A DNA stretch of 64,000 nucleotides, taken from Bemisia tabaci. Its lineage: Eukaryota > Arthropoda > Insecta > Hemiptera > Aleyrodidae. Position 1 is the stretch's first letter, and each line of letters opens with the position of its first letter. Made by a program: the position numbers and the translations under genes. The stretch is from assembly GCF_918797505.1 (NCBI RefSeq), contig NC_092793.1, positions 89,106,411-89,170,410 of the forward strand. Reading direction: 5' to 3'. Of this stretch, positions 3,819 through 21,800 are shown one piece after another. The notes under the pieces were generated by a model. It saw nothing but the letters and a program-made list of their open reading frames with translations. It was not told the DNA's origin and ran no database searches.

Positions 3819-6800
3819 GTACGTCTTAATTATATCTAATCTCAATGAGAAGCAAACTATTTTGCAAGTATACAGCATCTTCAAAGTCTTCTTACCTTAA
3901 TCATCGACCGAGCAGCCATCAAATTCAATCCTTCTGGAAGATATTTGCCACGAAAAGTATGAATTCCATTTAATTTAATTTTTTTTATTATATTTTTTTC
4001 GTATTTCTTTACATACAACTATTCAATACGGGTACCTATATTAGATATATTAAGGAAGACGATCATCTCGAACCCAAGTAATGCAACAGAACCAAAAACA
4101 CTTTTCTCAAAAACAGATTAACACTAAAAATATTCGGGGGGGGGGGGGGGGGGCAAACGAAAACGATATAACAATAATTATAATGCATGATATCCAAGTT
4201 GCATGCTAACTCGGATTATACCAAGAACCCACCCGAGAAATTGCAAGCCCCTATTACAAAACTCTACTCGGTTTTAAGACGTTTTCACTAATAATTAATG
4301 ATGTATTTAGAATCTATGGGCTATGATTACATCAATAAAATCCTACGATGACGAAATTATCAAATAATAACTGTGATAGGGGGCCGTCCCCAAATTACTT
4401 AATGCTAAATTTGGGGGTTTTTGGACACCCCTACCCCCCTGTAAAGCTCCTTAACGCTATTCTAGACCTCCCTAGAAAATTACATAACGCTTGCCCGGAA
4501 CCCCCCCCCCCTCCACGACCTGGATAAATAAAGATACAAGTATTATCTGACATTTACTGAACGGATCGGCAAATCTATTCAGTGAGAAAAAGTGAAAGTA
4601 TTTCAGAGAATATTTTTGAAATTCTTCAAAACTTCCAAAGGCGGCGTGACACTGGCATCCCCCCCCCCCCTAAGCACGTTACGTAATTTAGGGACGCCCC
4701 CTAATGGTATCAAAGCAATAGATGCTGACGTTGTATAATCAAACGATTACGTCTTTAGTAGCAGCATTTAATGCCGTTGTCTGAAACAGCAGAGAGGGGT
4801 GAGGATGACGTCATTGAGAGGAAAGGATGGTGGATGGCGTTAATGGAACCATCATTTGATTGTAATTGAAATTAAAATGCGGGAAGGGTTACACGAGGAA
4901 AATTCCCTGAGCTAGAAATCGTAACCAGTTATTTTTTGAAAAGTAAAAGATTTTCAGCCATGCATTTCCGATGTATATAGGTACCTTAGCTACGTGAAGG
5001 TTCCAGTTTTTTTAGTTTTGCGCAAGTTCATTTGTAAGTCGTCATTTTTCTTTATAATCATAATCGTGTATCGGTGAGACTTAGACTGGCTCAACTCTCA
5101 GATTAGGTAGGTTTTTTTTTTTTTTTTATTATTTATTAGCACAAAGAAAACTGTACAAATGAGACACTTTTAGACATAGAGAATGTCTATGAAAAGCTTG
5201 CTTAATCTGCTAAGGTAACTTAACAATACGGTTTCACGTTAAATCTGAAAAATACTACCTGTACAAAGCTAGGAGGAAAATAAAACAAAATTATTCCAAA
5301 ATAAAAATGTGTTTTTGGTTAATCTTTGATGTGTGGACGACCGGAAACGGCCGAAGTCCAAGGAGCCCCCAATCACGTCCAAAGAGCGCGGGGAGGCACG
5401 TATGCTAAATTATGGGAAGAATTTGGAGAACCCCTGAATTTCAAGCGCGCGGGGTTTACGACGCTTTAGCCTGCGGATACACCGGTCCCGATCCAGCGGG
5501 GCGATTATTGAAATGTCATCGACTCTATGTCGCCTCTTACGACAAGACACAGCCCTATCTTAACCGTGCAATATATCGCAATTTGATGTCTTGTCGGGCT
5601 GGTTTAAATTTCAATAATCGGCCCGCAGGAGCGCTAGCGCTTCAGGGTTGGGGTGCCGGTGCAGCCGCGTCTCATATGCAGTGTACATTTTCGTAATGTA
5701 CTCCTCCACTGAATCAATGTTGAGGTCAGCGCGAATATCTGCGTTCCTCTCATACCATCGTGCTTTAACAATACTCCGTAAGATCTTCATTTGCATAATC
5801 TCTATCTTGTCTAGATTTGACCTGGCTGCACAGCCCCACAACTGACAACCATAACTCCAAACCGGCCTCAACATTGATTTGTAGAGGAGCAATTTGAGGT
5901 GAAGGGATAGCCTGGATTTGCGGCCCACGAGCCACTGCATGTTTAAGAATTTGAGGCGTAATTGCGCCACCTTTTTTTTAATGTGGACACCCATCTGAGC
6001 CTGGAATCCAGGTGGAGGCATAAATAACGAGCGACTGTGTCTTGCGGGATTCTGTCCTCTCCTAAAAATAAGGGGAGATGAGTAAAAGGTTGGTTTGTGA
6101 AAACTACTTCCACCGACTTAGTAGCGTTCAATTTTGTTTTGTCCTTTTTCGTCCATTTATGAATTTTGTTTAAATGAGTTTGAGCTATATGACGTGCCTC
6201 CCTGTAGCTCCTGGACGAAGCCATCACGAGAGTGTCATCGGCATAAACACCCAACTTTAGTAGGGTGAAAATAGCGACTTGAGAACAGTAAATTATCCAA
6301 CAGCGTTGCATGATTGTGCAGAAAAATATGAATTAAATTACAGCGTTGTATAGGGATTATTGTTCAATATGGCAACGCTGTAAAAGAAAGTATTGCATGT
6401 TGCCCCTTCAATATGCGGGTTATGCAATCGTGTATGAATGCCCCTTCATTTTTCGGGTTATGCAATGGTGTATTTTTCAAGATGGCGCAGCAGTGTTGCC
6501 GAACGGGGCACGTAAATAAATGATTTATTTATTGGTGAAATTTTGCAACATTGCATTTTACAGTGTTGCCAGATGGGGCAAGAAATTAGTTGATTTTTCC
6601 GTACAGTGTTGCCAGATTGTGCAAAAAATTCGGATTTTCGGACTTGTAAAATTTTTCGGTTTCGAGAGACCGTATCTTACCATATGGGTCGGTATCAGAT
6701 ACTGTAGATTAGGGTCTGATTCGGTAAAATTGAAAATTTTTCGGAAAATCACCCTCGTCCGATCCGGCGCGGACCGATGCGATTCTTTTACGCTATTGAA

Positions 6801-18800: not shown

Positions 18801-21800
18801 CCCGTAGGCTTGTGCTGAAGTTTCCTAAACAATCCGGTTCGCGAGGGGGGCTGCCCGCAATTTTTAAGTTTTTCTGATACCCTTGATCCGTAGAAACTAA
18901 TAGCCAGTCGTTACATCGTTGTGCGATCCATGAACACACAACTATTTCACGATGAATTTTGAACTCTGGACGGAGCGAGGACCGCAGTCTACGAAGGCCA
19001 CGAAGAAAACCGTGTATACACATAAGATAGGTATGTGTCATAGACGTGTTTATAACATCAGACATACAAACGGTGAATAGTAAAACTCAAGAATCCATTT
19101 ATTCAAACAAGCATAAAAAACTCGTATATACATATAAGATACGCATGCGACTTAGGTGAAAGTTGGATTTTCTCGAAAACTAAAAGTCGTATCAAAATTT
19201 GGCCTGTACAGTTTTCCGATCTTCCATAGTGTAAAAGAATCGCATCGGAGGAGGGTAATTTTCCGAAAATTTTTTAATTTCCCGAATCAGACCCTACTCA
19301 CCAGTCTCCGATACCAGGCCCATACTGTAGGATATGGTGTATTGATCCCGAAAATTTTACAAGTCCGAAAATCCGAATATTTTACACAATCTGAAAACAA
19401 TGTAAGGAACAGAACCGCGCATACACATAAGATAGGTATATATCATAGATGTGTTTTTACAATCGGACATACAACCTGTCAAGAGTGAACAACCAACCCA
19501 TTTATTCGAGCAAGCGTAAAAACTCGTATATACATATAAGATACGCATGCGACTTAGGTGAAAGTTGGATTTTCTCAAAAACTAAAAGTCGTCTCAAAAT
19601 TCGGGTCGTACGGTTTTCCGATCTTCGATAGTGTAAAAGAATCGTGTCGGGTTGGGATGGATCGGAGGAGGAGAATTTTCCAAAAATATTTTCCAGCGTA
19701 GGACTTAGATAATGTTTTAATATCCCGAATCAGACCCTCCTCTCCAGTCACCGATACCATACTGGAGGATATGGTCTATTGATCCCAAAAATTTTACAAG
19801 TCCGAAAATCCAATTGCCCGAATCAGACCCTACTCTCCAGTATCCGATACCAGGTCCATACTGTAGGATATGGTCTTTCGAAATCGAAAATTTTTACAAG
19901 TCCGAAAATACAATTTCCGGAATCAGACCCTACTCTCCAGTATCCGATACCAGGTCCATACTGTAGGATATGGTCTTTCGAAATCGAAAATTTTTACAAG
20001 TCCGAAAATCCAATTTCCGGAATCAGACCCTACTCTCCAGTATCCGATACCAGGTCCATACTATAGGATATGGTCTTTCGAAATCGAAAATTTTTACAAG
20101 TCCGAAAATCCAATTCCCGAATCAGACCCTATTCTCCAGTTTCCGATACCAGGCCCATACTGTAAGATACGGCCTTTCGAAACCGAAAATTTTACAAGTC
20201 CGAAATCTCGGAAACTAAAAGTCGTATCAAAATTCGGTCAGTACAGTTTTCCGATCTTCGATAGTGTAAAAGAATCGCATCGGTCCGCTACGGATCGGAG
20301 GAGGGTAATTTTCCGAAAATTTTTTAATTGCCCGAATCAGACCCTACTCCCCAGTATCCGATACCAGGTCCATACTGTAGGATATGGTCTTTCGAAATCG
20401 AAAATTTTTACAAGTCCGAAAATCCAATTACCGAATCAGACCCTAATCTCCAGTATCAGATACCAGGCCCATACTGTAAGATACGGTCTTCCGAAGCCGA
20501 AAATTTTACAAGTCCGAAATCTCGAAAACCAAAACTCGTATCAAAATTCGGTCTGTACAGTTTTCCGATCTTCGATAGTGTAAAAGAATCGCATCGGTCC
20601 GCATCGGATTGGTCGAGGGTGATTTTCCGAAAAATTTTCAATTTTACCGAATCAGACCCTAATCTTCAGTATCTGATACCGACCCATATGGTAAGATACG
20701 GTCTCTCGAAATCGAGAAATTTTACAAGTCCGAAAATCCGAATTTTTTGCACAATCTGGCAACACTGTACGGAAAAATCAACTAATTTCTTGCCCCATCT
20801 GGCAACACTGTAAAATGCAATGTTGCAAAATTTCACCAATAAATAAATCATTTATTTACGTGCCCCGTTCGGCAACACTGCTGCGCCATCTTGAAAAATA
20901 CACCATTGCATAACCCGAAAAATGAAGGGGCATTCATACACGATTGCATAACCCGCATATTGAAGGGGCAACATGCAATACTTTCTTTTTACACCGTTGC
21001 CATATTGAACAATAATCCCTATACAACGCTGTAATTTAATTCATATTTTTCTGCACAATCATGCAACGCTGTTGGATAATTTACTGTTCTCAAGTCGCTA
21101 TTTTCACCCTACTAACTTTCCCCCTCTCCCAGACTGTGGGATGTCTGTAGTGAAGAGAGCGTAGAAAAGAGGAGAAAGACAGGAACCCTGTGGAACTCCT
21201 GCTCCTATCGGCCTAAAACTTGAGGTGGTATTTTCGTAGCGTACTCGGAACTGCCTGCCAGTGAGGAAAGAGGCCAGGAGTTCCACATGATTACACGGGA
21301 GCATTTTATATAGTTTACCGACAAGGCGCTCGTGCCAGACACGATCGAATGCTTGCGCCACGTCGAGAGATTAGGTAGGTGATAAGATTTTCATTCTTGA
21401 ATTTATATTACTTTAGGTGAAAATGGTCCACCTGGGTCTCCTGGTTTGCCTGGTTTGACAGTCAAAGGTGAGAAAGGTCTCCCCGGCCTAATTGGAAAAC
21501 ATGGACGCGAAGGAATATCCGGAATTCCAGGAGAAAAAGGTTTGGTTTTTTTTTCTATTTTGATAATATGTGGTTGAACTCCTATTGTGAGATCAGGAAG
21601 AGAAGAACGAGAAACTATGAGGACGCCATGACGATATATATTGAGGGGGCCGCTTCCATAGAGCCTGGGCGGCTAGGCGTACATAGTTGCCATATTGACA
21701 TGTTCCTTTTTTTTTTTTTAGAAATAAGACTGAGTTTCTTGTCTTTGCTACATGGCATGAATGTTAAAATTGCAAAAAGATAAACATTTGGATTTTGGAT

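Follow-up and report, generated by a model that had tools for sequence, protein, structure and literature searches.

The 64,000-nucleotide window analyzed here, from Bemisia tabaci (C1:89106411-89170410), contains a palindromic element of 14,855 bp (6259-21113 in window coordinates), which is probably a recent insertion and is classed as a non-autonomous, palindromic Polinton (Maverick) without recognizable genes. Searches of the 610-Mb assembly (151 contigs) revealed further copies, and their arms resemble their own partner more closely than the arms of other copies; the mechanism keeping the arms alike is the point of interest. Taking these results jointly, the element is most likely a palindromic foldback derivative of a Polinton without recognizable genes, with arms copied from or corrected against each other through a hairpin and with mobilization in trans. 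An original prediction, made from the letters of the window alone, had likewise read it as a foldback derivative of Polinton/Maverick, and this is supported by the shared tips, the 6-bp target-site duplications (TSDs), and the polymerase-B-bearing partners described below.

The element tips, AGTAGGGTG at 6259 and CACCCTACT at 21113, are exactly inverted with AG and CT at their ends, and AACTTT is duplicated at both borders (Table 1), as the prediction had described. In silico deletion of the element together with one AACTTT yielded a frame of 188 amino acids with a YADD box, open across the junction. The restored frame gave a single unbroken match to RVT_1 (profile 72-193, 77.7 bits), whereas of the two flanks, scored separately, one reached 38.9 bits (profile 71-140) and the other 19.1 bits, which is below the cut-off (151-193); on the profile, the two stretches all but adjoin. 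Restoration of the frame by removal, combined with the continuous RVT_1 match, therefore indicates that the element inserted into a reverse-transcriptase (RT) gene. The disrupted gene had been called a Jockey RT; its rejoining through the YADD box held up, while Pfam identifies it as RVT_1 only and the type is the earlier reader's name. The empty site likewise sustains the claim of an insertion rather than an inversion.

A search with the outermost 382 bp of the tip found at least 43 genome matches (40 of 562 candidates scored), and a 24-position tip pattern had 88 exact matches (48 forward, 40 reverse), compared with none for a reversed-pattern control. These copy numbers are approximate, as a number of the copies, situated on small unplaced contigs, could be haplotype duplicates. 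When an inner-arm piece (9131-9540; 40 of 195 candidates scored) was searched and pairs were defined as inverted matches within 25 kb, the 40 scored matches formed 18 inverted pairs, the window element included, and left four unpaired. The AGT-type inverted ends, AGTAGGGTG in the window element, are mostly AGTAGGGTG or AGTAGTATG in its relatives. An exact 6-bp TSD was present at 25 of the 29 end pairs read (1/1 for the window element, then 7/10, 9/10, and 8/8 readable of 9 asked); the last eight comprised four found by script (C2:47268, C3:218109, C6:13092090, and C12:365429) and four read by eye, where the tip match of the script had failed or shifted (C9:6430854, C2:67368091, C1:42112784, and C2:67433712). 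Among the 29, all 12 with an inverted arm pair displayed exact TSDs, and these had 12 different sequences, therefore representing independent insertions. One of the 12, C2:67433712, has a more complex center, and three more TSD-flanked pairs with one-sided arm matches were kept out of this set. The search for further copies that the prediction had proposed thus came out in its favor, since many others share these tips and carry 6-bp TSDs, and the window element is not the only copy. The exact tip pattern had no matches in genome_contigs, a collection that may omit records of the window's own genome, and viral_contigs, searched by exact pattern for the tip, the 100-bp unit, and the 19-bp array, contained none of the three.

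This recurrence also bears on whether the palindrome is a product of assembly, a point on which the prediction went too far, since a TSD alone cannot exclude an artefact inside the element. An assembly error, from a read that folded back or an inverted repeat that was collapsed, could account for inner arms that are almost perfect up to a sharp edge at 9130, and the structure is known here from assembled sequence, not from reads. Such an artefact is nevertheless disfavored because the palindrome recurs at many loci, and the 18 inverted arm pairs, their several sequence groups, the varying loop lengths, and the 12 distinct TSDs make it very improbable. A non-mobile, segmental inverted duplication of host DNA might find some support in the dispersed repeats within the inner arms, which resemble miniature inverted-repeat transposable elements (MITEs); the precise empty site and the differing 6-bp duplications at independent loci render it next to impossible.

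The connection to Polintons was established through elements with the same tip. With 91 of 188 candidates scored, our search with PF03175 (DNA_pol_B_2), which we take to be the Polinton-type, protein-primed polymerase, gave at least 100 genome matches; many lie in long stop-free frames, and none of the matches listed fell inside the palindromic element. Of 20 other tip pairs, at least eight enclose such a match, although one of the eight, C29:169175-191177, is without a TSD and may join the tips of two elements. The prediction had proposed looking for tip-sharing elements with polymerase B, and one of those found, C35:160937-175132 (TSD TACGTA), also carries, in a 5-kb piece, matches to Pox_A32 (26.7 bits; cut-off 22.8) and a PLA2-like domain (40.3 bits; cut-off 23.9), together with an rve integrase core (22.1; cut-off 32.6) and a chromodomain (18.5; cut-off 25.1) below cut-off in one frame. 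Judging by the stop-free polymerase-B frames, full Polintons seem to be numerous and well preserved in the B. tabaci genome, in which a repeat survey (PMC9143410) counted 6,723 Maverick copies belonging to 28 lineages. At five tip loci where polymerase B is matched no more than ~11 kb away (L027, L028, L029, L031, and L032), the outermost 482-633 bp of the palindrome's arm recur at 97-98% identity (to base 633 in L027). The 19-bp array of the loop also recurs in these five ends, mostly at 92-98% identity, starting about 575 bp from the tip in four loci or 915 bp from it in L027, and separated from the shared tip by ~95 bp (283 bp in L027). The 99-100-bp array is represented by one matching stretch of ~120 bp in four of the five fetched ends and by slightly more in L027. 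Sharing of both the tip and the 19-bp array therefore indicates that the ends and part of the center of the palindrome are Polinton DNA. The absence of a transposition gene, noted earlier, was confirmed: a six-frame Pfam scan of arm and loop was empty, while the flanks, as positive control, gave reverse transcriptases. Polymerase B, integrase, ATPase, protease, and capsid, which would distinguish an autonomous Polinton, all went unmatched in arm and loop. The palindrome is therefore classed as a derivative and not as an autonomous Polinton.

Our pairing of arm matches took in all 40 inner matches, 14 of 118 listed core matches, and, out of 40 outer matches scored, the 24 in elements that also have an inner pair. 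The inner piece showed no arm-to-arm mismatches in 9 of 11 elements and three in the other two, against 5-16 mismatches between sequence groups, with five young copies identical. Likewise, the outer piece (~795 bp) differed by 0-4 mismatches between arms in all 10 elements other than the window copy and mostly by 5-31 between elements (0-1 among three near-identical young copies). When the arms of 11 elements, including the window copy, were randomly re-paired, the sum of mismatches was never so low in 20,000 trials. A loop-adjacent piece (12900-13398) was 100% identical (rounded) between arms in seven elements, the window element among them, with loops of ~650-700 bp. This symmetry extends to spacing: midpoints computed from outer and inner pieces coincide within 3 bp in 10 of 12 elements, and the distance between the two pieces, which spans the 184-bp array and ranges from 1,116 to 1,696 bp among elements, is equal within 5 bp between arms in 10 of 12. 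The low mismatch within copies and the equal spacing therefore indicate that, at least in the parts compared, one arm was made from the other or the two were corrected against one another.

The gene content of Polintons points to protein-primed replication followed by integration. The enzymes of full Polintons would replicate and integrate the palindrome in trans, by protein-primed strand displacement and then 6-bp staggered integration, and during replication the self-complementary strand could fold into a hairpin, so that one arm would be copied from, or mismatch-corrected by, the other. Adenoviruses, which also replicate by protein priming, form symmetric palindromic recombinants with two copies of one end, but these are not integrated by a cognate integrase. 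In adeno-associated virus, double-stranded snapback defective genomes arise by replication errors (PMC8235507). The latter offers a mechanistic analogy only, as it concerns another virus group and genomes that are packaged and not chromosomal. The main rival to arm copying by hairpin is ordinary chromosomal gene conversion, homogenizing the arms after insertion with no involvement of element replication. Arm-to-arm gene conversion is familiar from Y-chromosome palindromes; it likewise predicts arm likeness within copies, and the mosaic of the window copy, with identical inner and differing outer arms, resembles conversion tracts. Against this stand the extension of symmetry to array spacing over 1.1-1.7 kb in 10 of 12 elements and the finding that the compared arm pieces are already identical in young copies hardly differing from each other. 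We consider post-insertion conversion possible but clearly short of probable. We also advance tentatively, at somewhat less than even odds, that Polintons support self-complementary satellites that are born as perfect palindromes by snap-back replication of an arm and inserted by a helper integrase.

The window copy itself is atypical, and its description as a near-perfect palindrome applies to the inner arms (two mismatches in 4,268 aligned bases; 2/3,762 outside arrays) and not to the outer ~2.9 kb. Outside arrays, the latter carry 30 mismatches in 1,505 aligned bases (Fisher p=1e-14 against 2/3,762), a count from which the badly aligning stretch 7427-7637 (24 mismatches in 149) was excluded, and array lengths are unequal as well; the outermost 299 bp have one mismatch. 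The change from diverged outer to near-identical inner arms is abrupt, at 9130. The outer right arm is closest to the element at C1:64.71 Mb (10 differences), the outer left arm is closest to another group (8 differences), and several young copies match the inner pieces without a single difference. We infer that the outer right arm was acquired from another lineage via recombination or gene conversion; as the TSD is intact, this exchange therefore predates the insertion or lacked a crossover. The boundary at 9130 is not a clean match to a donor, and 8 bp are missing there only in the left arm of the window copy among the four sequences compared. A simple C29-type origin of the left outer arm was rejected, since C29 has 13 extra bases absent from both window arms and from C1:64.71.

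Several observations weigh against a hairpin-copied, trans-mobilized Polinton derivative. The prediction that the arms are far longer than typical terminal inverted repeats (TIRs) proved correct, and ~7 kb lies far outside the 46-1,447 bp of vertebrate Mavericks (PMC8097293). The outer arms of the window copy differ at 15 of 792 sites, and arm spacing is unequal in this copy (173 bp) and in C2:67368 (188 bp). Three of the 29 end pairs are without a TSD, the TSD of one end pair carries one mismatch, and C1:42112784, a palindrome with a TSD, has diverged ends, CGTRGGGA. The integrase match in the C35 element is weak, and neither the four tip loci nor the 5-kb piece used for comparison matched the flanks of the loop array. 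Neither transposition nor excision nor a replication intermediate was seen directly, and arm identity could also stem from ordinary gene conversion after insertion.

Comparison with known systems supports the class assignment. Vertebrate Mavericks have (AGT)2//(ACT)2 ends, 6-bp TSDs, and lengths of 12.7-24.6 kb (PMC8097293); the AGT-start tips of the palindrome are close to these ends, its TSD is 6 bp, its length falls within this range, and its tip and 19-bp array are common to polymerase-B elements of the same genome. It differs in having no recognizable gene, 7-kb arms, and a small loop. IS3EU/GingerRoot elements likewise have a 6-bp TSD, but the palindrome ends in AG..CT and not in TA..TA, the ends given for IS3EU (PMC10045372). 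Also considered was that the palindrome belongs to a different foldback superfamily (FB, Galileo, Tetris, or Mutator) and resembles Polinton ends by chance. FB and Galileo are established foldback elements. Tetris of Drosophila virilis, with TIRs up to 1,735 bp and TSDs of 8-10 bp, is described with long inverted arms, internal tandem repeats, and no recognized coding capacity (PMC4079207). The palindrome shares these features, lacking a conserved open reading frame (ORF), and has a variable middle as well, but its arms reach 7 kb, its TSD is 6 bp, and 482-633 bp of its tip are 97-98% identical to the ends of polymerase-B elements, so that an origin in another superfamily is very improbable.

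Table 1. Features of the palindromic element and its insertion site (window coordinates).
Feature	Position	Strand	Remarks
Split RT frame, C-terminal part, YADD box	5946-6252	-	
Left target-site duplication, AACTTT	6253-6258		
Left arm	6259-13398	+	7,140 bp
Polinton-type tip	6259-6740	+	arm bases 1-482; 97-98% identity to ends of L027-L029, L031, L032
99-100-bp tandem array	6852-7426	+	5.8 copies
184-bp tandem array	8433-9012	+	3.2 copies
Inner left arm	9131-13398	+	2 mismatches vs inner right arm
MITE-like dispersed repeat, inverted ends	9555-9943	+	84% to locus L006; mirrored in right arm
Second MITE-like repeat	10355-10895	+	79% to window 1221-1655; 76% to locus L021
Central loop	13399-14093		695 bp
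19-bp tandem array in loop	13606-13935		17.4 copies
Right arm	14094-21113	-	7,020 bp
Outer right arm	18369-21113	-	ancestry probably differs from outer left arm
184-bp tandem array, right-arm counterpart	18476-18889		2.2 copies
Right target-site duplication, AACTTT	21114-21119		
Split RT frame, N-terminal part	21114-21370	-	

Both MITE-like repeats of the inner arm occur elsewhere in the B. tabaci genome. The inverted ends of the first were read by eye, as were the approximate ends of the second, which is also mirrored in the right arm. Positions 14028-14037 of the loop hold TTACCCTACT, complementary to a variant of the tip, AGTAGGGTAA; this may be an old Polinton-end remnant or may be due to chance. 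Among other tip-paired elements, C29:123955-131988 and C38:23271-31306, both on unplaced contigs, have the same tip variant and ~8.0 kb each and are perhaps haplotype duplicates, and a 4.9-kb element at C9:6340026-6344938 (AGTAGTATG ends, TSD ATTTTT) is perhaps another non-autonomous form, with no polymerase B among the matches listed.

Elsewhere in the window, a second inverted-repeat structure at 43942-50273 has 420-bp ends (99.3%), the right one adjoining a short-spacer palindrome of 1.87 kb (47990-49855), and contains a 133-bp tandem array (46982-47737); no 6-bp duplication was seen at its ends when the flanks were read by eye. It was rejected as a relative of the palindromic element, as the only blastn match of the latter elsewhere in the window was the MITE-like repeat at 1221-1778. 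At 51749-56547, inverted repeats of 517 bp (98.6%) with ~151-bp tandem units at both ends surround an RT ORF (52375-53673). Near the element, on the minus strand, a long frame resembling retroelement gag (21869-24205) matches aspartyl-protease and zinc-knuckle domains. Collagen-like Gly-X-Y exons are found at 28232-28618 and 34541-34927, possibly of a type IV collagen gene. Rfam at gathering scores detected nothing in the 64-kb window.

Among the titles and abstract openings listed in searches of one open-access library, none describes a palindromic or foldback Polinton. The free, linear, protein-primed replication of Polintons has been argued mostly from their genes. The likeness of arms within copies of a satellite family offers a readable record of this replication, along with a cis-substrate on which it can be tested. 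If the proposal holds, snap-back satellites would be to transposons what snapback defective genomes are to viruses, and would preserve in the genome a fossil record of extrachromosomal Polinton DNA replication. For the host, such palindromes may endanger genome stability and, if transcribed, would yield very long double-stranded RNA.

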